Shown in pieces: positions 37,890 through 64,000 of a stretch of 64,000 bases of DNA. Every line of letters begins with the position of its first letter. Position 1 is the stretch's first letter. This stretch comes from Micromonospora cremea (lineage in GTDB: Bacteria > Actinomycetota > Actinomycetes > Mycobacteriales > Micromonosporaceae): contig NZ_FSQT01000001.1 in assembly GCF_900143515.1 (NCBI RefSeq), forward strand, positions 1,922,001 through 1,986,000. The letters run 5' to 3'. The translations under genes were made by a program, and so were the position numbers. The notes under the pieces are model-generated. The model was not told the origin of the DNA and did not search any database. It was given only the letters and a program-made list of their open reading frames with translations.

Positions 37890-37927
37890 CGGGTCCTCCT
37901 CGGGTGTCCACGCCCTGGGGCACATCC

Positions 37928-38078
37928 CGACGGCCGAAGTATCCTGGCTTCCGGATCGACGCTCTCCCCCGGCCTTCCAACCGCAGACACACGGCCGTGA
38001 CTCACGAGGGGGGATCACTCCCCGGTGACAGTGGCGGGACCGCGTCGGAATCACACCGACTTCCTTCACTGCCGTCAG
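37928..38078 (-). promoter_or_regulatory. cobalamin riboswitch
   Basis: Read on the minus strand, the element contains GAAGGAAGTCGGTG, then TCCGACGCGGTCCC, followed directly by the B12 box GCCACTGTCAC. Further 3' is GAAGCCAGGATAC, the other highly conserved block. GACGGC/GCCGTC at the ends can form P1. This order is that of the AdoCbl riboswitch. It sits about 25 bases before the ribosome site of the His-rich peptide and 320 bases before cobN, and should shut down the operon when cobalamin is plentiful. Confidence 0.93.
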
Positions 38079-38099
38079 GCCGCGAATGCTGCCACACCC

Positions 38100-51874: not shown

Positions 51875-51890
51875 TGTGAATGCGATCACA
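51875..51890. promoter_or_regulatory. Crp-like site upstream of the LppM-like gene
   Basis: TGTGA-ATGCGA-TCACA matches the consensus half sites and spacing of Crp/GlxR-family regulators exactly. It is 13 bases from the ATG at 51903, so a bound protein would cover the start region and more likely repress. The DNA around it is AT-richer than usual for the window. Confidence 0.6.
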
Positions 51891-51902
51891 CACACTGAGC
51901 GC

Positions 51903-52805
51903 ATGAACAGGAGAGTCAACCGCGGTAGGGCACTCCGCGTCGCGGTGTGTCTCCTCCTTCTCGCCGTTCTGAGCGGCTGCATTCAGGACGGTCGAGGGCG
52001 CAGCGTTCTCGTCCGGCACGCACCGCCAACGCCCGATATCGTCGTACCAGTATTTCCGGGACTGGAACGACCCGTGTTCACCCGATTCTGGGCCGCTCAA
52101 CTCAACATGGGGCTCACCGTCAACACCGACGACACAGTCGACGGGCAGCTGCTGCTGACTGCTCACAGGTCCCGGCTGGTCGCCTTGAACAAGAATATCC
52201 CGGCGGCCATCGCCGAGTTGCGCCAGAACATCCCCGCGCTGCCGCCCGGCGAGGAGACCGGCTACGAGGACGGCAATCTCTTCGGCACCCAGATCAGTTA
52301 CCGCAAGGCACCACTGACGACCTTCGACCGCGAGAGCATGAAACTGGTCCGGGACAACGATTTCTACCGCTTCACGCTGCCGCTCGATCCGACGAAATAC
52401 GGCAGAAAAGCAGCCGAACAGAATCCGCAAAACCAGCAGGCATTCCTCAAGCTGATGTCGTTCGAGATCTCGGTGACATTTCCCGGCCGAGTGATCGACA
52501 CCAATGGCACCGTCAACGGCCGGTCGGTCAGCTGGAAGGTGAACTCCAACCAGGACAAGCCGATCGAGCTGCGGGCCGTCGCCGAGGCACCGCCCCGACC
52601 GTCGGCCTCGCCGGTCGCCGCCGCCGACGGAGGCGGGTTCCCCTGGCTGCTGATCGTCGGCGGGCTGCTCCTCCTGCTGCTGCTCGCCGCGGTGGGCGTA
52701 CTCCTGCTGCGTCGCCGCCGCCCGGCGGCGCCCGCCGCACCGGGCGCGACCGCAACGGGACCGACCTCGCCGGGCCCGCCCGCCGGCGCGCCCGGGCCCG
52801 GCTGA
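51903..52805 (+). CDS. LppM-like lipoprotein with C-terminal membrane anchor
   Basis: A 300-aa protein starting at ATG 51903. A lipobox LAVLSGC follows a hydrophobic signal, so the mature N-terminus should be lipidated. After it, LNMGLTVNTDDTVDGQLLLTAH resembles the LppM (DUF3153) domain. Near residues 247-270 a second hydrophobic helix (FPWLLIVGGLLLLLLLAAVGVLLL) is followed by RRRR and a Pro/Ala-rich tail facing the cytoplasm. It ends 140 bases before the first eCIS gene, and a role in anchoring or releasing that particle is possible but not shown. Confidence 0.7.
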   Translation: MNRRVNRGRALRVAVCLLLLAVLSGCIQDGRGRSVLVRHAPPTPDIVVPVFPGLERPVFTRFWAAQLNMGLTVNTDDTVDGQLLLTAHRSRLVALNKNIPAAIAELRQNIPALPPGEETGYEDGNLFGTQISYRKAPLTTFDRESMKLVRDNDFYRFTLPLDPTKYGRKAAEQNPQNQQAFLKLMSFEISVTFPGRVIDTNGTVNGRSVSWKVNSNQDKPIELRAVAEAPPRPSASPVAAADGGGFPWLLIVGGLLLLLLLAAVGVLLLRRRRPAAPAAPGATATGPTSPGPPAGAPGPG

Positions 52806-52947: not shown

Positions 52948-53292
52948 GTGAACGATCTCTTCACCTGGGCCGCCCTGGGCAGCCTCGCCGGCGCAAGCGC
53001 CGCCACCCTGCTGGCCACCAACGTCATCGGCGGGCTGATCGGCCCCAGCGGCGACAAGATCCGCAAGTGGATCGCCATCGGCATCGCGCTCCTGCTGTCC
53101 TACGTGACCGCGGCGTTCGCCGACGACGCCGGCGGCGAAAAGTGGATCATCGCGTTCTTCAACGCACTGGTGATCTTCTCCGCCGCGCTCGGCGTCAACC
53201 AGTTCCCGCCCGGCAACCGGCAGGCGACCCAGCCGTCGCCGACCCAGGTCGCGCAGGGTCGCGAGCCCCGTGTCTTCCGGTCCTGGGTCTGA
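52948..53292 (+). CDS. small membrane protein at the head of the eCIS operon
   Basis: GTG 52948 with AAAAGGGGG gives 114 aa. Three hydrophobic segments are visible: FTWAALGSLAGASAATLLATNVIGG, WIAIGIALLLSYVTAAF and WIIAFFNALVIFSAALGV. A short polar tail then runs to the end. Size and topology are holin-like, but no family is recognised. Its position, 12 bases before the next membrane protein gene and in line with the sheath and tube genes, suggests a particle-associated membrane function such as docking or release. Confidence 0.65.
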   Translation: MNDLFTWAALGSLAGASAATLLATNVIGGLIGPSGDKIRKWIAIGIALLLSYVTAAFADDAGGEKWIIAFFNALVIFSAALGVNQFPPGNRQATQPSPTQVAQGREPRVFRSWV

Positions 53293-53304
53293 AGGGGTGA
53301 CGTC

Positions 53305-53913
53305 ATGGTCTTCGGAATCATCAGCGCGGCGGTCCAGGTCGGCTTCGGCGCCCTGCTCGGCCTCCTGGCCGGCGGCCCGATCGGGCTGCTGATCGGCGCC
53401 GTCGTGGGCCTGCTGGTCGGCGCGGTCTTCGGCTGGGCGACGGCCTCCGCCGGGGTGGACGCATCGGATACCCGCGGCATCTTCCTCTTCATCGTCGACC
53501 ACACCTGGAGCCTGCTGAACACGGTCGTCGGTGCCATCTACCTGGCCGTGCACCTGCTCTTCGGGCACTCGCTGGATCGGCCCACCTCGCAGGGCAGCGG
53601 CCGGGTCAGCCTGGTGGAGGGTGTCTCGCCCCGCTACGCCACCACCATCGGCACCGTCTGCGCCGGCTCCAGCCCGGGCATCCAGCGGCACGAGGACGTG
53701 CACATCTTCCAGGGCCGCCTGCTCGGCCCGCTCTACATCCCACTGGTGCTGGCGAACTACGTGCTGTTCACCATCGCACCGGTGTGGCTGCTCTACCACG
53801 ACCACACCAACGCGCCGATCAACCGGTTCACCCGCTACTTCGAGATCGGCGTCTACCCGCACGTGTGGAACGAGGCCATCGCGTACCGGATTCAGGGGAC
53901 GCCACCGCGATGA
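53305..53913 (+). CDS. membrane protein with HExxH motif, eCIS-associated
   Basis: A 202-aa protein. Residues 10-48 are a Gly-rich hydrophobic hairpin (GALLGLLAGGPIGLLIGAVVGLLVGAVFG), with further helices near 57-87 and 142-165. The segment IQRHEDVHIFQGRLLGPLYIP (residues 127-147) contains HEDVH (129-133), the pattern of zincin metalloproteases, though other zinc ligands are not obvious. It could be a membrane protease, an effector, or a non-catalytic scaffold. ATGA overlap with the following tail-terminator gene ties it to the operon. Confidence 0.65.
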   Translation: MVFGIISAAVQVGFGALLGLLAGGPIGLLIGAVVGLLVGAVFGWATASAGVDASDTRGIFLFIVDHTWSLLNTVVGAIYLAVHLLFGHSLDRPTSQGSGRVSLVEGVSPRYATTIGTVCAGSSPGIQRHEDVHIFQGRLLGPLYIPLVLANYVLFTIAPVWLLYHDHTNAPINRFTRYFEIGVYPHVWNEAIAYRIQGTPPR

Positions 53914-54608
53914 GCACCGACGGGCGCGGACCGATCGAGACGGCGACCGCCGAGTTGGCCGCCTGGCTGACCAGCGCGGCGGGGGAAACCGTCCCGGTCG
54001 GCCCGCCCCGTACCGACGGCGACGCCGCCGGGCTCACCCTCTGGCCGATGGAGCTGCGTTCGGCGCGGCAGACCCGCTCCAGCGGCGCGGTCCGCGAGCC
54101 GTACCGGTTCACGGTCCGCTACCTGCTCTGCGTGACCGGTCCGGCCGGGCTGCCCCGGCTGGACCGGGTGCTCACCGCCGCGACCCGCGACGGTCGCTAC
54201 CCGGTGGTGCTGGAGGCCGGGGAGGCGCCGCTGTGGACCGCGTTCGGCACCGCGCCACGCCCCGGGCTGCTGATCGACGTGCCGGCGCAGGTGGACCACC
54301 CGACCCCGGCCGCGCCGCCGGTGCTGCAACCGCTGCGGCTGCGGCAACTGGAGCTGCGCACGCTCACCGGCCGGGTGGTCGGCCCCGAGGAGCAACCCCT
54401 CGCCGCGATGCGGGTCGAGCTGCCCGGCACGTCGTCCGTCACCCGCACCGACCCCGACGGCCGGTTCCTGATCGTCGGTGTACCGCACGACCCCGAGCGC
54501 CCGGGCCCGGTCCGGCTCCGGCTGACCGGGCGCGGGCTCGTGCTCACCGCCGAGGTCGACCCCGCCGAACCCGACATCGTCATCGTCTGCGCGCCACCGA
54601 CCCACTGA
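53910..54608 (+). CDS. probable tail terminator (Pvc16/DUF4255-like) with C-terminal Ig-like domain
   Basis: The 232-aa protein starts at ATG 53910. The N-terminal half (IETATAELAAWLT, PYRFTVRYLLCVTGPAGLPRLDRVLTAA) has the look of the tail-terminator/cap family that sits before the sheath gene in contractile systems. From about residue 155 a carboxypeptidase-regulatory-like domain follows (LTGRVVGPEEQPLAAMRVELPG, RTDPDGRFLIVGVP), a beta sandwich often used for binding. It is 23 bases before the sheath gene. The assignment depends on position as much as on sequence. Confidence 0.6.
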   Translation: MSTDGRGPIETATAELAAWLTSAAGETVPVGPPRTDGDAAGLTLWPMELRSARQTRSSGAVREPYRFTVRYLLCVTGPAGLPRLDRVLTAATRDGRYPVVLEAGEAPLWTAFGTAPRPGLLIDVPAQVDHPTPAAPPVLQPLRLRQLELRTLTGRVVGPEEQPLAAMRVELPGTSSVTRTDPDGRFLIVGVPHDPERPGPVRLRLTGRGLVLTAEVDPAEPDIVIVCAPPTH

Positions 54609-54631
54609 CGCCCACCCGCACAGGAGGACCG

Positions 54632-55897
54632 ATGCCCAGCTACTTCTCCCCCGGCATCTACGTCGAGGAGGTCCCCAGCGGCGCCCGACCGATCGGACCG
54701 GCGAGCACCAGCATCGCCGCCTTCGTCGGCGTCGCCCCGGACCGCTCCGCCCAACTGGGTAAGGCGGTGCCGGTCAACAACTGGACCGAGTTCCTGCGGC
54801 TCTACGCCGGCGGGGAGCAGGCGGAGAGCACCGCGCTGGCCCGGGCGGTCTTCGGCTTCCTGGACAACGGCGGCGCCCGCTGCTGGGTGGTCAACGTCGG
54901 TGAGGGCGGCGCGATCAGCGGCACCGGGCAGCGGCGCGGCGGCCTGCAACTGCTGGAGGCGATCGACGAGATCTCCATCATCGCCGCGCCCGGCTTCCAC
55001 GACGTCGTCGCGCACGAGGCGCTGCTGAGCATGGCCGAGCGGACCCGCACCATGGTGGCGATCTGCGACCCGGCGCCCGACATCGACGACATCTCCGCGT
55101 TGACCCGGGTCGCCACGCCGTCCTCCGGCAAGCCCCCCAAGCCCGCCGAGGGCGCGGGCGGGGGCCCGGCCAGCGGCTCGGGCGGCGGTTCCGGCGGCGG
55201 TCCTGGCGGCTCGGGTGGCCACGAGGGGGCGGCGTACCGGCCCCGGCAGTCGGAGTTCGGCGCCTTCTACTACCCGTGGCTGCGCGTGCGCGACCCGATC
55301 AGCGGGGAGCTGGAGCTGACCCCGCCGAGCGGTCACCTGGCCGGCATCTGGGCCCGCACCGACGCGCTGCGCGGCGTGCACAAGGCGCCGGCCAACGAGC
55401 CGGTCCGCGGCGCCGTCGACCTGGGCTACCTGGTCACCCGGCCGGAGCACGACGTGCTGAACCCCAAGGGCGTCAACGTGATCCGCTACTTCGCCGGTGA
55501 GGGCATCCGGGTCTGGGGCGCCCGTACGCTCGCCGCCGAAGCGAGCGAATGGCGCTACCTCAACGTGCGTCGGCTCAGCATCGCCATCGAGCAGGCCATC
55601 GCCAACGGCACCCGGTGGATGGTCTTCGAGCCCAACGACTTCACCCTCTGGCGCTCGATCCGGCGCGACATCGGGGCGTTCCTGACCCGGGTGTGGCGCG
55701 ACGGCGCGCTGCTCGGGCGCAGCCCCGAGGAGGCGTTCTTCGTCAAGTGCGACGAGGAGACCAACCCGGCGGAGGTCCGCGACGCGGGCATGGTGATCGC
55801 CCACATCGGCATCGCCGTCGTCAAGCCCGCCGAATTCGTGGTGTTCAAGCTGAGCCAGTGGGCCGGCGGCACCGAGACCGAGACGATCGGAGGCTGA
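54632..55897 (+). CDS. contractile tail sheath protein
   Basis: A 421-aa sheath starting at ATG 54632 behind AGGAGG. The opening SYFSPGIYVEEVPSGARPI is the diagnostic N-terminus of T4 gp18/Pvc/Afp sheaths. AAFVGVAP and the C-terminal WRYLNVRRLSIAIEQAIANGTRWMVFEPND and GALLGRSPEEAFFVKCDEETN are equally characteristic. Residues 164-199 are a Gly/Ser/Pro-rich insertion before SEFGAFYYPWL, probably a surface loop on the assembled sheath. The sheath stores the energy that drives the inner tube through the target envelope. Confidence 0.95.
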   Translation: MPSYFSPGIYVEEVPSGARPIGPASTSIAAFVGVAPDRSAQLGKAVPVNNWTEFLRLYAGGEQAESTALARAVFGFLDNGGARCWVVNVGEGGAISGTGQRRGGLQLLEAIDEISIIAAPGFHDVVAHEALLSMAERTRTMVAICDPAPDIDDISALTRVATPSSGKPPKPAEGAGGGPASGSGGGSGGGPGGSGGHEGAAYRPRQSEFGAFYYPWLRVRDPISGELELTPPSGHLAGIWARTDALRGVHKAPANEPVRGAVDLGYLVTRPEHDVLNPKGVNVIRYFAGEGIRVWGARTLAAEASEWRYLNVRRLSIAIEQAIANGTRWMVFEPNDFTLWRSIRRDIGAFLTRVWRDGALLGRSPEEAFFVKCDEETNPAEVRDAGMVIAHIGIAVVKPAEFVVFKLSQWAGGTETETIGG

Positions 55898-55898
55898 C

Positions 55899-56381
55899 AT
55901 GCCCACCACAGCCACCCCGCAACCGGGTGCCCCGGTCGACCCGTACCGGGCGTACAACTTCCGGCTGCTCATCAACGGCGTCACCAACGGCCACTTCACC
56001 GAAATGAGCGGGCTGGAGGTGAACATCCCCGGCCAGCCGTACCGGGAGCACGGCCTGGGCCGGATGCGGATGGTGCCGGGTCAGGCGGAGTACGAGCCGG
56101 TGACGCTGCACTTCGGGCTCACCGCGTCCCGGGAGCTGTGGGACTGGGTGCACGCCACGGCCCAGGGCACCCTCAACCGCCGCAACGTCTCGGTGGTGCT
56201 GCTGGACTCCGTCGGGACCGCCGAGGTGCTGCGCTGGAACCTGATCGACGCCTGGCCCACCCGGTGGCGCGGGGCGCACCTCAACACACTCAGCCACGAG
56301 ATCGCCGTCGCATCGCTGACCCTGCGCTACGAGGGTCTGGAGTTGGAGACCGGCGGTGCCACCGCGCCGACTCCCGCGTAG
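55899..56381 (+). CDS. tail tube protein (gp19-like)
   Basis: A 160-aa tube subunit: PYRAYNFRLLINGVTNGHFTEMSGLEVN is the standard start, followed by MRMVPGQAEYEPVTLHFGLTASRELWDWV and the C-terminal ALTLRYEGLELE-type strand (ASLTLRYEGLELETG). It belongs to the T4 gp19 / Afp1-5 family and forms the hexameric inner tube. Only one tube gene is seen here. It starts one base after the sheath stop and overlaps the next gene by 26 bases. Confidence 0.94.
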   Translation: MPTTATPQPGAPVDPYRAYNFRLLINGVTNGHFTEMSGLEVNIPGQPYREHGLGRMRMVPGQAEYEPVTLHFGLTASRELWDWVHATAQGTLNRRNVSVVLLDSVGTAEVLRWNLIDAWPTRWRGAHLNTLSHEIAVASLTLRYEGLELETGGATAPTPA

Positions 56382-58035
56382 CTGGCTCGCCGGCCGGCTG
56401 CGCTCAGCGGCCGGGGCGGTGCAGCGCCTCGCCGGGCGCGTCGAACCCCCCGGCGCGACCGGGCACCGGCCGTCGGACGTTCGCGCGGCCGCGCCGCGCC
56501 GCTTCGGGGAGCCACCGCAGCACTGGCTGGACCTCGTCGCCGCACACGCCCCCGGTCTGTTGCAGGACCTGGACCTCGACGGGCCGCCGGCCAGGCACGC
56601 CGCTGGCGACGGTACGGACGGACACCACGGCGGGCCCGACCACGAGGACGCCGTCCGGCGCGCAGAGGCCGGCGATGGGGCGGGCGGGGCCACCGAGGGA
56701 TCGGGCCGTCACCGGCCCACAGCCGACCCATCGGGTGGGTCCGGGGGGTATGACGCTGCCGAGTTCGGCGGTCCTGCCAGCGCTGGCCGCCCGGATGGCG
56801 CGTCCGGAGTTCCTGATACGGGCGGGTTCGGAGTGCCCGTTGCGGGTGGTGCATCCGGCGGGCCGAGGGCGCGCCGGTTCGGAGTGCTTGGCGCGGATGG
56901 TGCAGCTGATCGGATCGGCGATGTGAACCCAGGCAGCGGCGGCGGCTCGTCCGGTCGGGGCGCCAGGATCGACGCAGCCGGCTCCGCGGACGCGGGCGCT
57001 CCCGGCACCACGGGCATGTTTGGCGTGGGGATGGAGTTCGGGGCGCCGGATGGCCTGGCGGCCGACGGCACGAGGCCAGCCCGACCGCGCTTCCGCCGTG
57101 GGTTCGCTTCGCCGCCCGGGCCGGGTGCGCCGGCAGGGTCGACTGCGTTGGCGGGATCGGGTCCATCGGCGGGATCGGGTTCGAGCTCGGGGCTCGGCGG
57201 ACCGGCGCAATGGGCTGCCTCCGACGTCGTTGCCGGGATGGGCGGGGACCGGCCGCCGCGATCCGGACAGGCGGGGGAACACGTTGCGCCATTCCGGCCG
57301 ATGATCCGTCCTGCCGTCCCCGGCCCACCGCATCCGCCCGCCGGCACCGGCCCTTCGCACGGATCCGAGCACCCCGCAGCGGCCTCGCCCTCCACCGCCG
57401 CGCGCGACCCCCGCGGGCCGGGCCGCGTCGTGGACGGTTTCGGCCGCTCCAGGGGCACTTTCCCACCACGATCTGCTGTCGGATCCGAGCGCGGGCCGGA
57501 TGAATGGGGCAGCGACCGGTCCACGGCGGGCGGTAGCAGGCACCCGGCGGGAACGAGCGGCTTTGAGACGGGCAGCGATGGGTCCGAGGTCGGTCGAGGC
57601 GGGCTCGGGACGGGCGGTGGTCGAGCGGGGCGGCCGGGCGTGGCTTCGGCGGCGACTGGAGACGCGCCGCGCGGGCCGCACCCGGGCGAGGCCGAAAAGC
57701 GAGCGGGGCCCACGGGCCCGATGGGGCCCGCGACGGGTGGTGGCCCGCTCGACGTGGCCCGCGCCGCCGGCAGCGGACCCTGGCCGGCACTGCCCGACGA
57801 GCCGGCGTGGCCCGGGCACCGGCCCGGCGGGGCGGAGGCGGTCACCGGCGGAGCGGTCATCGGCGCGGCGTGGACGGGTGGGTCGGGGCGCGGCCCGTTC
57901 GGCGGAGGGTGGTTGGCGGTGACCGGCGATCTGTGGCCGGCGCTGCCGGACGACCGCCTGCTGTGGACGGTGCCCGATGCGGCGCTGGACGCGACTGATC
58001 TGGGCCGGCTGGAACGGGAACAGGCGGGTGACTGA
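56356..58035 (+). CDS. long disordered eCIS protein with conserved ends
   Basis: GTG 56356 inside the tube gene gives 559 aa. The first 70 residues (RRFGEPPQHWLDLVAAHAPGLLQDLDLD) and the last 75 (PWPALPDE, then LWPALPDDRLLWTVPDAALDATDLGRLERE) look folded. The 400 residues between are Gly/Pro/Ser/Ala-rich with no predicted structure. Position between tube and LysM hub, and the ATG overlap with the hub gene, make it part of the particle or its assembly. It may be a short conserved eCIS protein with a greatly expanded linker. Base composition and strand-symmetric open frames make the middle hard to judge. Confidence 0.7.
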   Translation: MPPRRLPRSWLAGRLRSAAGAVQRLAGRVEPPGATGHRPSDVRAAAPRRFGEPPQHWLDLVAAHAPGLLQDLDLDGPPARHAAGDGTDGHHGGPDHEDAVRRAEAGDGAGGATEGSGRHRPTADPSGGSGGYDAAEFGGPASAGRPDGASGVPDTGGFGVPVAGGASGGPRARRFGVLGADGAADRIGDVNPGSGGGSSGRGARIDAAGSADAGAPGTTGMFGVGMEFGAPDGLAADGTRPARPRFRRGFASPPGPGAPAGSTALAGSGPSAGSGSSSGLGGPAQWAASDVVAGMGGDRPPRSGQAGEHVAPFRPMIRPAVPGPPHPPAGTGPSHGSEHPAAASPSTAARDPRGPGRVVDGFGRSRGTFPPRSAVGSERGPDEWGSDRSTAGGSRHPAGTSGFETGSDGSEVGRGGLGTGGGRAGRPGVASAATGDAPRGPHPGEAEKRAGPTGPMGPATGGGPLDVARAAGSGPWPALPDEPAWPGHRPGGAEAVTGGAVIGAAWTGGSGRGPFGGGWLAVTGDLWPALPDDRLLWTVPDAALDATDLGRLEREQAGD

Positions 58036-58988
58036 TGGAACGCGTCGCCTTCCTCATCGACTCCTCCGGCGAACGGGTGGACTGCCTGCTCAACCCGGAG
58101 ACCGTGCAGGTGACCCGGCTGGCCGGGGTACGCCATCGGGCGGCCGCCGGTGGGCAGCTCACCGGGTCCGGGCTGGCCGACGACCCGCTGGTCTTCACCG
58201 GCGGCGGCCGGACCGAGCTGGTGCTCGACCTGCTCTTCGACGTCGATTTCGTGGAGGCGCAGGTTCGTCCGGGTGACGTACGGGTCCTCACCCGTCCGTT
58301 GTGGATGCTGGCGGAGAACTCCACCGCCGAGCACGGGTGGCTGCGTCCGCCGCTGGTCCGGCTGGTCTGGGGCAAGACCTGGAACGTGCCCGGCGTCATC
58401 ATCGCGGTGGCCGAACGGTTCGACGCGTTCACCGGCACCGGTTCGCCGCGCCGCTCCTGGCTGCGGCTGAAGCTGGTCCGGGCCGCCGAGACGGCCGATC
58501 AGGCGGAGGCCGGCTTCGCCGAGGAGTTGGCCGCGGCGAGCACCCCGACCGCCGCTCCGGGCAGCGCGGTGGTCGCCGCCGGTGACGGCGCCGCCGAGCC
58601 CGGTCGCTCCGGGGTGCGCTTCGATCTGCTGGCCAACGACGCGCTCGGCTCACCGCTGCGCTGGCGGCTGCTGGCTGAGCACAACCGGGTCACCGATCCG
58701 CTGGCCGTGCCGGCCGGCACCACGCTGGCCGTCCCGCCGCCCGGCGGCCCGGCCGGCGGTAGCGCGGGCGCGTCCGCGTTGACGGATGCGGTGGTCGGGA
58801 TGGCGAGGGCGGTGGCCGGTGCGGTGGGTGCCGGCGCGTCCTTCGTGGGCACCTCGATCGCCACCGCGCCCGCGGCCTGGGGAGCGACCGGAACGACGAC
58901 CGGCCCGGCACCGACCGGCGCCAGCCCGGCCAGCACCAACCCCGCCGGCACGAGCCCGGGCGGCACCGGTCTGGGCGGCGCGCCGTGA
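58035..58988 (+). CDS. LysM-containing baseplate/hub protein (Afp7/Pvc7-like)
   Basis: A 317-aa protein. The N-terminal contractile-injection-system tube-like domain has LIDSSGERVDCLLNPETVQVTR and FTGGGRTELVLDLLFDVDF. A middle segment LRPPLVRLVWGKTWNVPGVIIAVAERFDAF is typical of these hub adaptors. A degenerate LysM unit follows (DLLANDALGSPLRWRLLAEHNRVTDPLAVPAGTTLAVP). The last 75 residues are Ala/Gly/Thr/Pro-rich. It links tube to baseplate. Its start overlaps the previous stop by one base, and its stop overlaps the VgrG gene by four. Confidence 0.88.
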   Translation: MERVAFLIDSSGERVDCLLNPETVQVTRLAGVRHRAAAGGQLTGSGLADDPLVFTGGGRTELVLDLLFDVDFVEAQVRPGDVRVLTRPLWMLAENSTAEHGWLRPPLVRLVWGKTWNVPGVIIAVAERFDAFTGTGSPRRSWLRLKLVRAAETADQAEAGFAEELAAASTPTAAPGSAVVAAGDGAAEPGRSGVRFDLLANDALGSPLRWRLLAEHNRVTDPLAVPAGTTLAVPPPGGPAGGSAGASALTDAVVGMARAVAGAVGAGASFVGTSIATAPAAWGATGTTTGPAPTGASPASTNPAGTSPGGTGLGGAP

Positions 58989-60580
58989 CCAGCGTCGCGC
59001 CCCGGGCGCTGACCGTCCTGCTCGACGGCGTCGAGCTGGCCGGCGCGGCCCGCCAGCGGATCCGCTCGCTGCGGGTGGCCGCCCGGCTCGACCAGCCCAC
59101 CCAGGCCGAGCTGGTGCTCGCCACCACCGCTGGGAGCGGCGCGTTCGACCCCGCGGTACGCCCCGGCACGGCACTCGACGTACGGCTCGCCGATCACCCC
59201 GACGCGCTTTTCACCGGGGAGGTCACCTGCGTGGAGGTCGAGTACGGCGCCGACGGCGCGGCGGTGCTGCGCCTGCGGGCGTACGACGCGCTGCACCGGC
59301 TGCGCAAGCGACAGGGGCTGCGGGTGTTCACCTCGGTGACCGCCGCCGAGCTGGCCCGGGACCTGTGCGGCGAGGTCGGGCTGACGGTGACGGCGGAGAC
59401 CGACGGGCCGCGGCTGGAGCGGCTGCTCCAGCACCGGCACAGCGATCTGGAGCTGCTGCGCGAGATGACCGGCCGCGCCGGGCTGCACCTGGCCACCGAC
59501 GGCGACGGGGTCCGGCTAATCACCCTCGCCGGGTACGGGGAACCGGTCGCGTTGGCCCTCGGCGCGGGCGTGCACACCCTGCGGCTGGCGACCAACCTGG
59601 ACCAGGCCAGCGGCGCAAGCGCGGCGCTGGGCTGGCATCCACAGCGGGCCGAACCGATCAGCCAGCAGGCCGACGAGGCGCGCTGCGGCCGGCCGGCCGG
59701 TGACCGGCCGGACCCGGCGGACGTGGGCGCCGACGGGGTACGCACCGCCGTCGACCAGCCCGGCCGCAGCGACGACGAGCTGGCCGCGTTGGCCCAGGCC
59801 CGGCTGGACACCCGCGCCGCCGCGCTGGTCACCGCCGAGGGGGTGGCCGAGGGCGACCCGGCGCTGCGCCCCGGCCGGCGGATCGACCTGACCGGCGTGC
59901 CCGACCCGGTCGCCGGGGCGTACGTGCTGACCGAGGTGGTGCACACCGTGGACGGCAACGGGCACCTGACCCGGTTCTCCACCGTGCCACCGGCCGCGCC
60001 GCCCACCGCGTCGACCACCGGGGCGGTGGTCACGCTCGGGACGGTCACCGACGTCGCCGACCCGGACGGGCTGGGCCGGGTCCGGCTGACCCTGCCGGCG
60101 TACGGGGACCTGGACGCCGGGTGGCTCGGCGTGCTCTGTCCCGGTGCCGGGCGCGGCAAGGGGCTGGTGGCACTCCCCGACCCGGACGACACCGTGCTGG
60201 TGGTGCTGCCCGGCGGCGAGCCGGCCTCCGGCATCGTGCTCGGCTCGCTGTTCGGGGCCGTCGAGCCGTACGACGCGGGCATCGACGACGGCCGGGCCCG
60301 CCGTTGGACGCTGCGGACCGCCGGAGGGCAGTCGATCGTCGTCGACGACGTGCAGCGCAGCCTGCGGCTGGCCACCGAGGGCGGCAGCTGGCTGGAGCTC
60401 ACCCCCGACCTGGCCACCCTGCACGCGGCGACCGACCTGGTGATCTCCGCGCCCGGCCGGGCCATGGTGGTTCGCGCCCGCAGCGTGGACTTCCTGCACG
60501 CCGAGGCGACCGAGGACCCGACCACCGCGGCGGAGCGGGCCCGTGCGCTCGCCCGCGCACACCACGAAGGAGGCGGCTGA
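58985..60580 (+). CDS. VgrG/gp5-gp27-like spike protein
   Basis: A 531-aa protein. The gp27-like domain is LRVAARLDQPTQAELVLAT, GEVTCVEVEYGADGAAVLRLRAYDALHRLRKRQ and LLQHRHSDLELLREMTGRAGLHL. A gp5-type OB fold follows (GTVTDVADPDGLGRVRLTLPAYGDLDAGWLGVLCPGAGRGKG). A short beta-prismatic end comes next (RTAGGQSIVVDDVQRSLRL, SWLELTPD). It forms the trimeric spike under the tube. It is coupled by GTGA/ATGA-type overlaps to its neighbours. Confidence 0.93.
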   Translation: MTSVAPRALTVLLDGVELAGAARQRIRSLRVAARLDQPTQAELVLATTAGSGAFDPAVRPGTALDVRLADHPDALFTGEVTCVEVEYGADGAAVLRLRAYDALHRLRKRQGLRVFTSVTAAELARDLCGEVGLTVTAETDGPRLERLLQHRHSDLELLREMTGRAGLHLATDGDGVRLITLAGYGEPVALALGAGVHTLRLATNLDQASGASAALGWHPQRAEPISQQADEARCGRPAGDRPDPADVGADGVRTAVDQPGRSDDELAALAQARLDTRAAALVTAEGVAEGDPALRPGRRIDLTGVPDPVAGAYVLTEVVHTVDGNGHLTRFSTVPPAAPPTASTTGAVVTLGTVTDVADPDGLGRVRLTLPAYGDLDAGWLGVLCPGAGRGKGLVALPDPDDTVLVVLPGGEPASGIVLGSLFGAVEPYDAGIDDGRARRWTLRTAGGQSIVVDDVQRSLRLATEGGSWLELTPDLATLHAATDLVISAPGRAMVVRARSVDFLHAEATEDPTTAAERARALARAHHEGGG

Positions 60581-60918
60581 TGCGCTGGATCCACCGCGAC
60601 TCGGTGATCACCTGCGACCACGACGGCCGGGTCGAGAACCGGCCCTCGCAGCGGTGGGTGACCGTCACCGGCGTGCCGGTGCTGGTGGACGACGACCCGG
60701 AGGGACGGAAGATCATCGCCTGCCCGAACTACGGCCCGACCATCAAGCCGTGCACGACGACCGAGAGCCTGCGCGTCGGCTACAGCGACTGGCTGCGGGT
60801 CGACGGGCAGCGGGTGGTGCTGTCCCACCTGGAGGGGTTCACCAACGGGACGCCGCCCAACGTGGTCCATCACACGGTGCGCGACCCGCGCCAGCGGTTC
60901 CTGGGGGCGGACCGGTGA
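60580..60918 (+). CDS. PAAR-like spike tip protein
   Basis: A 112-aa protein starting at ATG 60580, the last base of the VgrG stop. The body (DHDGRVENRPSQRWVTVTGVPVLVDDDPEGRKIIACPNYGPTIKPCTTT) is rich in turns and beta strands with two Cys. GQRVVLSHLEGFTNGTPPNVVHHTV follows. Its position after VgrG is that of the PAAR or Afp10-type tip, which sharpens the spike and can carry effectors. Canonical PAAR repeats are not evident, so the call rests on order and size. Confidence 0.65.
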   Translation: MRWIHRDSVITCDHDGRVENRPSQRWVTVTGVPVLVDDDPEGRKIIACPNYGPTIKPCTTTESLRVGYSDWLRVDGQRVVLSHLEGFTNGTPPNVVHHTVRDPRQRFLGADR

Positions 60919-61349
60919 GGGCGTTCCGCTTCGTCGGCGCCGGCTTCGATGCCGGGCGCAGCGGCGGCCTGGCGCTCACCGCGGCCGGTGGCCTGGCCAT
61001 GACCGAAGGCGACGAGACCGTACGCCAGGCGCTGTTCCTGCTGTTGTCGACCACGCCGGGCGAGCGGCTGATGCGACCCGGGTACGGCTCCCGGCTGCAC
61101 CGGCTGATCTTCGCGCCCAACGACGACACCACCGCCGGGCTGGCCATCCACTACGTGCGCCAGGCGATCGCCCGCTGGGAGCCCCGGGTCGAGGTGATCG
61201 ACGTGGACGCCGGGCCGGATCCGGACGACGCGTGGCGGCTGGTGATCCGGCTGGACTACCGGGTGCGCGCCAGCCTGGCCCCCGGGCAGCTGGTCTTCTC
61301 CGTGGACCTGCTCCCGATCGACGAACCGGCACCGGGAGGACCGTCTTGA
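60915..61349 (+). CDS. gp25-like baseplate wedge protein
   Basis: GTG 60915 overlaps the previous stop (GTGA). The 144-aa protein has the gp25/IraD fold signature: DETVRQALFLLLSTTPGERLMRPGYGSRLHRLIFAPND, then AIARWEPRVEVIDVDA and LVIRLDYRVRA. It is the wedge that triggers sheath contraction. The last codons and the TGA stop (61347-61349) fall at the border of the TnpB element. The native reading probably continued for 3-5 codons and ended in an ATGA overlap with the next baseplate gene. Confidence 0.93.
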   Translation: MRAFRFVGAGFDAGRSGGLALTAAGGLAMTEGDETVRQALFLLLSTTPGERLMRPGYGSRLHRLIFAPNDDTTAGLAIHYVRQAIARWEPRVEVIDVDAGPDPDDAWRLVIRLDYRVRASLAPGQLVFSVDLLPIDEPAPGGPS

Positions 61350-61500
61350 CATCCTCCACCGCCGTGAAGGGCGGGGATTCCCTCGGTCGCCCGAGGGGGT
61401 TCCTGCTTCACCGGGCCGCGCCTTCGCCGCTTGCGCGGGTCGGGTCTTACCGTCCCTCCACAGGCGTTTTACCTCTCCGCCAGCCCGGCGGCGAGGATGT
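61346..61500 (-). ncRNA. putative TnpB guide RNA (omega/reRNA) at the element's right end
   Basis: The 3' end of tnpB and the following 120 bases contain two hairpins: CCCTCGG/CCGAGGG with a 4-base loop (61380-61397) and a CCGCC/GGGCGG-type stem next to the end. In TnpB systems this region forms the omegaRNA, and the bases just beyond (here the end of the gp25 gene, read on the minus strand) act as guide. Limits are approximate. Confidence 0.45.
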
Positions 61501-62581
61501 TCCTAGCGGCGTTGACGTCACGGTCGTGCACGGCATCACAGCCGGGGCACGTCCAGGCGCGAACGCCGAGGGTCATGGCGGTGTTGATCCGACCGCACGC
61601 CGAGCAGGTCTTCGTGCTCGGATGCCAGCGGTCGACGGCGATCACGGTCCGCCCGTACCAGGCGGCCTTGTACTCGATCATGCTGCGCAGTTGCGTCCAC
61701 GCCGCGTCGGAGATGGCGCGGGCCAGCGAGTGGTTGCGCAGCATGTTGCGCACGCTGAGGTCTTCGATCACGACCGTTTGGTTCTCGCGGACGAGTCGAG
61801 TCGACAGCTTGTGCAGGTGATCCCGCCGCCGGTCGGCGATGCGGGCATGAATCCGGGCCACCACAAGGCGGGCCTTGGCCCGATTCGCGGAGTCCTTGCC
61901 CTTGCGGGACAGGTCGCGTTGCGCCTTGGCCAACTTGCGCCGGTCAGCGCGCTCATGACGCGGGTTGGTGATCTTCTCCCCGGTGGACAGGGTGAGCAGA
62001 CTGGTGATGCCCGCGTCCATCCCCACCGCAGTGCTGAGCGGAGGAAGGGGCTCGACGGTGGGGTCGTCTACCAGCAGGGACACGAACCATCGGCCGGCCG
62101 CGTCGCGGGACACTGTGACCGTGGACGGTTGCGCGCCCGAGGGCAGGGGCCGGGACCACACGACGGTCAGCGGCGCGTCCATCTTGGCCAGGGTGAGCTG
62201 GCCGTCGCGCCAGCGGAACGCCGAGCGGGTGTATTCCGCCGACGCCCGGGACTTGCGCTTGGCCTTGAAACGCGGGTAACGCGAGCGCTTGTCCCAGAAC
62301 GCGGCGAACCCGGCTTGCAGGTGCCGCAGCGTCTGCTGCAAGGGCACCGAGCTGACCTCGTTAAGGAACGCCAGCTCCTCGGTGCGCTTCCACTCGGTCA
62401 GCCACGCCGAGGACTGCACATAGGTGCTGCGTTGCCGGTCGACGGCCCACGCCCGGGTGCGGGCGTCCAAGGCGAGGTTGTAGACCTTGCGCACGCACCC
62501 GAAGGTGCGGTTGAGCTGACCGGCCTGCTCAGGGGTCGGATAGCAGCGGTACTTGTATGCCCGCTTCACCACCTTACCCAT
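61469..62581 (-). CDS. tnpB: TnpB RNA-guided endonuclease
   Basis: A 370-aa protein starting at ATG 62581. The N-terminal KVVKRAYKYRCYPTPEQAGQL and RYPRFKAKRKSRASA lead into the RuvC nuclease. The three acidic residues appear intact: D189 in VGMDAGI, E273 in VIEDLSV and D355 in HDRDVNAARN. The zinc ribbon is CSACG (326-330) with CPGC (345-348). Length and motifs are those of active TnpB proteins, the relatives of Cas12. Without a neighbouring tnpA, movement would need help in trans. Confidence 0.95.
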   Translation of the reverse strand: MGKVVKRAYKYRCYPTPEQAGQLNRTFGCVRKVYNLALDARTRAWAVDRQRSTYVQSSAWLTEWKRTEELAFLNEVSSVPLQQTLRHLQAGFAAFWDKRSRYPRFKAKRKSRASAEYTRSAFRWRDGQLTLAKMDAPLTVVWSRPLPSGAQPSTVTVSRDAAGRWFVSLLVDDPTVEPLPPLSTAVGMDAGITSLLTLSTGEKITNPRHERADRRKLAKAQRDLSRKGKDSANRAKARLVVARIHARIADRRRDHLHKLSTRLVRENQTVVIEDLSVRNMLRNHSLARAISDAAWTQLRSMIEYKAAWYGRTVIAVDRWHPSTKTCSACGRINTAMTLGVRAWTCPGCDAVHDRDVNAARNILAAGLAER

Positions 62582-62682
62582 GCTTCACATTCTAGCTTTT
62601 ACCTATCTGAATCTGCTCTTGAGGGGAGGGAGCGGCGTTTCCTCCTCCGCCTGAAGGCGAAGGTGTCCACGCCGCGATCGCG

Positions 62683-64000
62683 ATGACGCTGCCCGTGCCG
62701 CACCTGGACGACCGCGCGTTCCTCGATCTGGTCACCGAGGCCCGCGAGCGGATCCGCCAGTCCTGTCCGGCCTGGACCGACCTGTCGGCGCACGACCCGG
62801 GCATGGCGCTGGTGGAGGCGTTCGCGCACCTCACCGAGGTGATGATCTACCGGCTGAACCAGTTGCCGGAGAAGGCGTACGTCTCCTTCCTGAACCTGCT
62901 CGGGGTGGCCCGGCACGCGTCCACCGCGGCCTGGGCGGACGTCCGGTTCACCCGCAGCGGCACCGACCGGGGCGCGGTGCGGATCCCGGCCGGCCTGCGG
63001 GTCGCGGCGGCTCGCGGCGCCGACCCGCGACCGGTCGTGTTCGTCACCACCGAGCCGGCGCTGCTGCCCGCCGGAGAGACCTCGATGACCGTGCGGATGC
63101 ACCACTGCGAGCCGGTCGAGGCGGAGCTGCTCGGCACCGGCACCGGTCAGCCGGGCCAGGTGCTGCGAGCGGCCCGGGCCCCGCTCGCGCACACCGCCGA
63201 GCCGCTGGACCTGCTGCTCGGGGTGGAGGTGCCGGCCGGCACCGTGGAGTTGGGCGCGGCGGCGCGCGAGCACGACGGCCGCACGTTCGAGATCTGGCGG
63301 CCGGTGGACAGCTTCGCCGGGGTCGGACCGCAGGCCAAGGTGTACCTGGTCGACCGCTGCTCGGGAACGGTCACCTTCGCCCCCGCCCTGGACCTGCGGC
63401 CGCCCGCCGGGCCGGCCCACCCCGGCGAGCCCGCGCCGGCCGAACCGGCCGCGCCCGCCGATCCTCCGGCCACACTCGGTGGCCCGGCGCGGTCGCCGGT
63501 GACCGTGGCGGCGGTCCCGTCGGCCGGGCGGCAGATCCGGCTCTGGTACCGGGCCGGCGGCGGGCCGACCGGCAACGTGGCCGCCGGCACGCTGACCAGC
63601 CTGCGCGACCCACTGCCCGGGGTACGCGTCGACAACCCCGGACCAGCGGCCGGCGGCCGGGAGATGGAGGCGCTGGAGTCGGTGCTGCTGCGCGGCCCGT
63701 ACGAGTTCTTCGCCCAGCAGCGTGCGGTCACCGCCCGCGACTTCGAGGTGCTGGCCACCAGCTCCGGCGCGGTGGCCCGGGCCCGGGCGTTCACCCGCGC
63801 CGCGGTGTACAGCTTCGCCCGGCCGGGCGAGGTCGAGGTGGTGCTGGTGCCGTACGTGCCGGCGGAGGCCCGGCCGGGTGGCCGGCTGCCGGTGGCGGTG
63901 CTGCGCGAGCACGAGGTGCCCGAGGCTCGGCGCCGGGTGGAGAGCGACCTGGAACAGCGGCGGATGGTCGGTATCCGGTCCCGGGCGACCTGGGCCCGGT
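62683..64000 (+). CDS. baseplate J/Afp11-like protein, 5' part
   Basis: ATG 62683 opens a frame that is still open at the right edge (439 codons visible). The start MTLPVPHLDDRAFLDLVTEARERI, and PAWTDLSAHDPGMALVEAFAHLTEVMIYRLNQLPEKAYVSFLNLLG, match the large actinobacterial 'putative baseplate assembly protein' of contractile systems. Next come FTRSGTDRGAVRIPAGLRVA and VLLRGPYEFFAQQRAVTARDFEVLA. It forms the wedge arms. The TnpB element separates it from gp25, so its transcription from the operon promoter is probably disturbed. Confidence 0.9.
   Translation, partial: MTLPVPHLDDRAFLDLVTEARERIRQSCPAWTDLSAHDPGMALVEAFAHLTEVMIYRLNQLPEKAYVSFLNLLGVARHASTAAWADVRFTRSGTDRGAVRIPAGLRVAAARGADPRPVVFVTTEPALLPAGETSMTVRMHHCEPVEAELLGTGTGQPGQVLRAARAPLAHTAEPLDLLLGVEVPAGTVELGAAAREHDGRTFEIWRPVDSFAGVGPQAKVYLVDRCSGTVTFAPALDLRPPAGPAHPGEPAPAEPAAPADPPATLGGPARSPVTVAAVPSAGRQIRLWYRAGGGPTGNVAAGTLTSLRDPLPGVRVDNPGPAAGGREMEALESVLLRGPYEFFAQQRAVTARDFEVLATSSGAVARARAFTRAAVYSFARPGEVEVVLVPYVPAEARPGGRLPVAVLREHEVPEARRRVESDLEQRRMVGIRSRATWAR

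Follow-up and report, generated by a model that had tools for sequence, protein, structure and literature searches.

A compact contractile injection system operon with a linked membrane module and no recognised ATPase in Micromonospora cremea

Contractile injection systems (CIS) of the Afp/PVC type, the extracellular CIS (eCIS), share a common logic of tube, sheath, gp25, VgrG, J and terminator. An AAA+ ATPase is 'always' present in such clusters in the words of Sarris 2014 (PMC4122934) and 'invariably' in those of Vladimirov 2023 (PMC10020575), where a Pvc16_N terminator also appears as an eCIS mark. The survey of Geller 2021 (PMC8213781) filtered for at least ten core genes, and a 2025 metagenome survey applied rules on Cis6 and Cis15. 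The CIS of Streptomyces has no fibres, and the predicted partner of its membrane protein CisA is Cis11 (PMC12237407); in a Streptomyces ATPase mutant the death phenotype is lost and the particles look normal (PMC10020575). The operon described here was found in 64,000 nucleotides of the soil bacterium Micromonospora cremea (contig NZ_FSQT01000001.1, positions 1,922,001 to 1,986,000; this whole stretch is called the window). Judged by its genes, with contractile sheath, tube, gp25, VgrG, LysM-type adaptor and J all in a single operon, it is a CIS, but not a canonical eCIS.

Genes were called with our own script in the window and its continuation (98 kb in total, from a host genome of 7.76 Mb). 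According to these calls, the operon runs on the plus strand from 52948 to 68065, ends 4 kb beyond the window and is followed by opposite-strand genes, including sugar-type ABC transport genes. A scan of named genomes yielded 219 stretches with sheath relatives, and the best 80 of the 219 were examined (the named loci below). The features of the operon are:

52948..53292, + strand: tm1, a small membrane protein, with a profile match in 53 of the 80 named loci
53305..53913, + strand: membrane protein with an invariant HExxH...Q, in 53 of the 80 named loci and with a homologue on a Deinococcus plasmid
53910..54608, + strand: tail-terminator-like protein (Afp16-like) with a CarboxypepD_reg-like C-terminal domain, in 80 of the 80 named loci
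54632..55897, + strand: sheath, short form, 421 amino acids (PF04984/PF17482)
55899..56381, + strand: single inner tube, gp19-type (PF06841, TIGR02241)
56356..58035, + strand: intrinsically disordered protein (open reading frame, ORF) whose ends are conserved in relatives
58035..58988, + strand: CIS_tube/LysM-type adaptor, Afp7-like (PF19266; LysM part judged by eye)
58985..60580, + strand: VgrG-like spike/hub (PF05954, GPD; PF04717, Phage_base_V)
60580..60918, + strand: PAAR-like spike tip, 112 amino acids (from its position and a conserved C/H pattern; without family match)
60915..61349, + strand: gp25-like wedge/sheath initiator (PF04965)
61346..62682, - strand: IS200/IS605-type TnpB element with an ORF at 61469-62581 (right edge uncertain by about 5 bp)
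62683..65385, + strand: baseplate J with a C-terminal beta-propeller-like region (TIGR02243/Baseplate_J); the window ends within it at 64000
65366-65881, + strand, beyond the window: gpI (Tail_P2_I)
65878-66810, + strand, beyond the window: bitopic receptor (Ig-transmembrane-lectin, predicted topology)
66807-67268, + strand, beyond the window: tm153, a small bitopic protein
67289-68065, + strand, beyond the window: tm258, a polytopic membrane protein

With a terminator-like protein, one sheath, one tube, the disordered protein, a LysM-type adaptor, VgrG, a PAAR-like protein, gp25, J and gpI, the operon looks complete. A first-pass annotation, made from the letters of the window, had listed eleven of these genes. 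All are present in the order given, and profiles match the sheath, the tube, CIS_tube, GPD and Phage_base_V, gp25 and J. Its description of nearly all starts and stops as overlapping was too strong, since only 6 of the 10 junctions overlap, with 9 of 10 lying within 25 bp. It had also classified the operon as an eCIS, proposed to look further to the right for a second baseplate gene, an Afp15-like ATPase and effector genes, and counted the absence of an ATPase and of the remainder of the baseplate against this classification. Extension to the right yielded the rest of J, gpI and the membrane proteins, but no Afp15-like ATPase and no recognisable effector gene. The remainder of the baseplate is thus present and the ATPase is not, so that the assignment to CIS stands by the parts, but not that to eCIS in the sense that requires an ATPase.

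Queries taken from canonical genes matched no AAA+ ATPase, tape measure or second tube in the window, in its extension or in the compact loci, as we call those with this short sheath. The sole exception among these queries, HExxH/eCIS_core, matched a gene after compact locus L106. As a positive control, the queries recovered the canonical loci L094-L097. When the canonical ATPase query was run against the whole host genome, only two weak AAA matches were obtained, with 31% identity over part of the sequence, and a search of this genome for a second CIS returned one PF04984 match only. Pfam and NCBIfam recognised no fibre or lysis gene in the operon, defence-system models gave no match for ten proteins, and no effector or immunity gene was recognisable among the flanking genes scanned. 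The single J is no sign either way, as it has been noted for Actinobacteria, Deinococci and Chloroflexi in general (PMC4122934).

Sheath, tube and terminator occur in all 80 named loci, and the later genes in fewer (LysM in 66; VgrG, PAAR and gp25 in 64; J in 63; gpI in 59), because contigs or stretches end. The named hosts, partly metagenome-assembled genomes (MAGs), are Micromonospora, Verrucosispora, Hamadaea, Catellatospora, Rhizocola, Allorhizocola, Actinopolymorpha, Microlunatus, Arthrobacter and Chloroflexota. We also searched 200 genomes of the family, for which all sheath counts refer to the matches listed. A sheath match was found in 117 of them: 45 have a full-length compact sheath, one (G112) a split one and 71 another sheath, where the match mostly covers the C-terminal half of longer proteins. 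Within the genus, 30 of the 38 genomes have the full-length compact sheath. At E 1e-30, an ATPase was detected in 12 of the 46 compact-sheath genomes (the 45 and G112). In 11 of these 12 a second, canonical sheath is listed no more than about 22 kb away; in G183 the ATPase is on a contig with no listed sheath, and G125 has a second ATPase copy without a listed sheath. None of these ATPases is close to the compact locus, each being either on a different contig or separated from it by at least 337 kb. Outside the family, the compact class is sparse: in a sample of the phylum, 3 of 396 genomes had a compact sheath at E 1e-100, the window's genome included.

In a sheath tree (FastTree, midpoint root) of 25 compact rows, 25 canonical rows and two pieces of L129, the compact rows from Actinomycetota and Chloroflexota and the L129 pieces group against the canonical ones with an SH-like support of 0.881. 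Relatives that share the plan come from Actinomycetota, Chloroflexota, Deinococcota and Alphaproteobacteria, the last on plasmids. A search of plasmids with J gave 53 records, five of which cover at least 80% of J, and three of the five were read (Rhodovulum MB263, Deinococcus AJ005 and Paracoccus MC1862). These three plasmids carry sheath, tube, LysM-type adaptor, baseplate V, PAAR-like protein, gp25, a long J, gpI, a PASTA protein that matches the receptor profile, and tm258, whose gene is reversed relative to the operon in two of them and precedes it in one. No match was obtained on them with the profiles of tm153, tm1 and the disordered protein, though small proteins stand at some of these places; the terminator profile missed the Rhodovulum MB263 locus, and canonical accessory genes had no match on any of the three. 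The Deinococcus AJ005 stretch also holds the HExxH membrane protein (E 6e-8), and an annotated 'AAA family ATPase' there reads, by its sequence, as a ParA-type partition protein. Among phage records, none of the 2138 matching ones covers 80% of the sheath. Fifteen IMG/VR contigs (L144-L158) contain sheath relatives with 27-55% identity. We recognised no description of the compact class in the open literature searched, judged largely from listings.

The membrane proteins at the end of the operon are linked to the compact CIS. The bitopic receptor directly follows gpI in all 57 loci that have room for it (at least 1300 bp), and the small bitopic protein is present in 21 of 21 loci with 2000 bp of room. 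For tm258 the count was 35 of the 80 named loci; since many of these loci stop short of the position where it would lie, it was examined in whole genomes. At E 1e-15, its profile matched 45 of the 200 family genomes, which are the same 45 that have a full-length compact sheath; it was absent from the 71 genomes whose sheaths are all of another kind, and from G112. Each of 16 genomes reached via named compact loci (7 Arthrobacter, 2 Actinopolymorpha, Microlunatus, one actinobacterial MAG, Hamadaea and 4 Chloroflexota) has one tm258 at about E 1e-54 or better; 15 of the 16 are new, as the Hamadaea MAG looks identical by its coordinates to G039 of the family sample. The link between compact sheath and tm258 is strict, with the number of independent events inflated by relatedness. 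Among 7997 candidates scored, 1826 homologues of tm258 were found at E 1e-5, and the 120 of them that were listed have no Pfam domain. A fold search with tm258 gave no match at E 0.001, and its best rows, a rhodopsin (E 0.055) and zinc-transporter-like folds (E 0.12), were not used.

By predicted topology, the receptor keeps an inner Ig-like domain and varies in its outer domain, which is PASTA in 12 of 28 proteins, a CBM fold in M. cremea and in most others without a domain assignment. A bitopic protein of the canonical loci (A5; L095:3023-4468), with Ig-like repeats judged by eye, may be the Micromonosporaceae counterpart of CisA. Twelve distinct loci have, beside the operon, genes for a CHAT-TPR protein, an S8 protease, a sigma factor and a further product of about 147 amino acids (for example L059:4287-9164; clusters by BLAST, Pfam on L059 only). 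The hosts are Catellatospora, Rhizocola/Allorhizocola, Actinopolymorpha and one further genome. Such a module beside a compact CIS would fit a role in cell death.

From these gene contents, we give an even chance to a compact CIS that sits beneath the membrane of its own cell and fires a single time when a cell-wall signal arrives, much as the Streptomyces CIS with CisA but minus the ATPase. Particles would assemble in the cytoplasm, and the baseplate would dock on this membrane from the inside via the Ig-like inner domain of the receptor and tm258. The receptor, encoded next to J and gpI, would use its outer domain (PASTA or CBM) to sense the state of peptidoglycan or glycan. On a signal, the sheath would contract once and the tube would be driven through the cell's own membrane. 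Because there is nothing to recycle the sheath and no obvious cargo gene, the likeliest outcome would be programmed puncture or death of the cell, as with Streptomyces CIS/CisA, rather than repeated secretion. More tentatively, and somewhat short of an even chance, we propose that these loci form a CIS class of their own that occurs in at least four phyla, in some cases on plasmids, and has an obligate membrane module. Its receptor would combine one cytosolic coupling domain with swapped wall-sensing outer domains (PASTA, CBM, META, propeller), and wall damage or glycan state would fire the syringe without an ATPase.

Several points weigh against this picture. The compact CIS is described here from its genes, and the topology of the receptor is a prediction. 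As the Streptomyces ATPase is needed for the death phenotype, the compact class must have replaced this step or acts otherwise. Comparison of the receptor inner domain with a bitopic protein of canonical loci gave a weak match (35.8%, E 3.8e-4). The absence of fibres does not set the compact class apart, since the Streptomyces CIS is likewise without them, and no CHAT module was seen beside the Micromonospora loci, for which up to 8 genes upstream, and in a few the downstream genes, were covered. In G112 (L129), the compact sheath is split over two frames and tm258 is missing; this locus is perhaps decaying. A second Rhizocola compact locus (L106, 13357-18815) is without tm153 and tm258; after it come an eCIS_core (PF13699) protein and ORFs that have no Pfam match and are possible effectors.

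This last locus could also speak for a device resembling the type VI secretion system (T6SS), docked in the same way but firing its tube outward, so that neighbours would receive effectors linked to the spike; the membrane module would then be a trans-envelope complex. The VgrG with its PAAR-like tip, the lack of a recognisable tape measure and the strictly linked membrane module parallel T6SS logic, and upstream of the Rhodovulum MB263 locus lies a second VgrG/PAAR pair annotated as TssI. We nevertheless hold such a device to be unlikely, as there is no ClpV-like ATPase for re-use, the sheath is a single gene and the flanking genes scanned hold no recognisable effector or immunity gene. With Pfam and NCBIfam, moreover, no membrane protein of the operon matched a Tss family of the TssJLM type, with remote homology being possible.

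An ordinary secreted eCIS, in a lineage that lost its ATPase, would have its particles freed by lysis and its membrane proteins used for release or self-protection. The core genes are indeed homologous to those of canonical loci, and the propeller of J could be the target-binding part. However, the compact sheaths group together across phyla, so that a loss of the ATPase would not be recent; given that the membrane module is strictly linked and that no gene for lysis or fibres was recognised in the operon, we find this explanation rather improbable. That the operon is what remains of a domesticated prophage tail or tailocin, now functionless, is highly improbable: sheath, tube and baseplate resemble phage parts and the TnpB element splits the operon in this strain, but the compact sheath is found in most listed genomes of the genus (as counted above), its gene order is conserved in four phyla, the flanks scanned have no capsid, portal or terminase gene, and no viral contig was confirmed for tm258. 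A prophage as such was rejected on the flanks scanned and on conservation. The first-pass view of a phage-tail-like particle rather than a prophage most likely holds; the ten flanking proteins scanned are of transport, LacI, NUDIX, FUSC, oxidoreductase or unknown type.

Individual parts deserve comment. The family matches of the terminator-like protein are to CarboxypepD_reg-type domains only, and Pfam gives no Pvc16_N match. Its profile, however, matches those of terminator-like proteins from canonical loci (80.5%, E 1.3e-5, profile against profile), so that a terminator role of the 53910..54608 product is supported. The disordered ORF at 56356-58035 is probably genuine. In the gap between tube and LysM gene, 66 of 66 relatives with both have an ORF that carries a WPx[LIF] motif close to its C terminus, compared to 17 of 1374 other called genes, the 66 having been chosen over three plus-strand frames and the control not. 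Against gene status, our own gene caller did not call the ORF whole, and codon changes relative to three relatives show a modest third-position excess only. In relatives the protein has 237-616 amino acids. Its gene occupies the place of the tape measure, where canonical tape-measure-sized queries match nothing, and the protein could be a ruler, a plug or cargo. A membrane-active peptide was considered and rejected, as the hydrophobic moment over the first 78 residues peaks elsewhere than at the conserved basic start. The PAAR-like protein has no Pfam or NCBIfam family match and none among solved structures. The HExxH membrane protein, considered as a possible member of eCIS_core (PF13699), has no Pfam match. 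A propeller-like C-terminal region, a label that rests on one NCBIfam match, is present in 67 of 67 compact J proteins above 800 amino acids and in 0 of 6 canonical J proteins.

The TnpB element of 1.34 kb, overlooked in the first-pass annotation, sits exactly between gp25 and J. Counting this copy, the genome holds it near full length at eight places, with 79-100% identity, plus fragments. Since it is found in 0 of the 80 relatives' loci, 63 of which extend to both gp25 and J, the insertion looks recent. In 55 of 57 relatives' loci gp25 and J overlap by 4 bp, and in 40 of the 57 a Shine-Dalgarno core lies no more than 20 nt from J, whereas in the window strain the two genes are 1.34 kb apart and no such core is near J; both frames are open. 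By removing the overlap and shifting the ribosome site away from J, the element may make the output of the operon low in this strain. Directly upstream of the operon lies a gene for an LppM-domain protein (51876-52805), with LppM-profile matches in 47 of the 80 relatives' loci. Further away, a cobalamin riboswitch (37915-38091, minus strand, 84.2 bits) is located upstream of a minus-strand gene run that starts with an ORF of 1222 amino acids.

By our own count, which does not use the hidden Markov models of PMC8213781, the operon has about nine core-type genes, compared to the ten required there. Survey filters of this kind, or the rules on Cis6 and Cis15, would probably drop such loci. Should the class prove real and active, a widespread branch is absent from the CIS catalogue. 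Membrane proteins resembling cell-wall sensors point to a poorly explored firing route for bacterial syringes. If this were true, the trigger of intracellular CIS would become testable, with peptidoglycan (PASTA) and glycans (CBM) as candidate ligands.

Compared with known systems, the compact CIS resembles the T6SS as a membrane-linked contractile syringe without a recognised tape measure, but has a single PF04984-type sheath gene in place of the two-gene TssB/TssC sheath, and no ATPase in place of ClpV. With Afp/PVC-type eCIS it has tube, sheath, gp25, VgrG, J and the terminator logic in common, and it differs from them in having one sheath gene instead of several, no ATPase and no recognised fibre gene. 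The canonical Micromonosporaceae loci L094-L097 share the family of hosts, homologous sheath, tube, LysM adaptor, VgrG and gp25, one J and, where the stretch reaches it, gpI. They have, in contrast, an ATPase with a Walker A motif, two tubes, a gene for 617-992 amino acids at the tape-measure place, a sheath of 515-544 amino acids and a J of up to 651 amino acids without the propeller region. Two further long-sheath loci (L093 and L098) have no ATPase within the 20 kb taken. The best-scoring solved chains for the compact sheath are 8bky, 8bl4 and 9ezm, the first two of which we take to be sheath chains of the Streptomyces cytoplasmic CIS (CIS-Sc, subtype IId, with CisA). Relative to that system, the compact one has no AAA+ ATPase, one tube gene, a shorter sheath and a propeller-like region in J. 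Its receptor, likened to CisA by place and predicted topology, carries a PASTA or CBM outer domain and is accompanied by two further membrane proteins.

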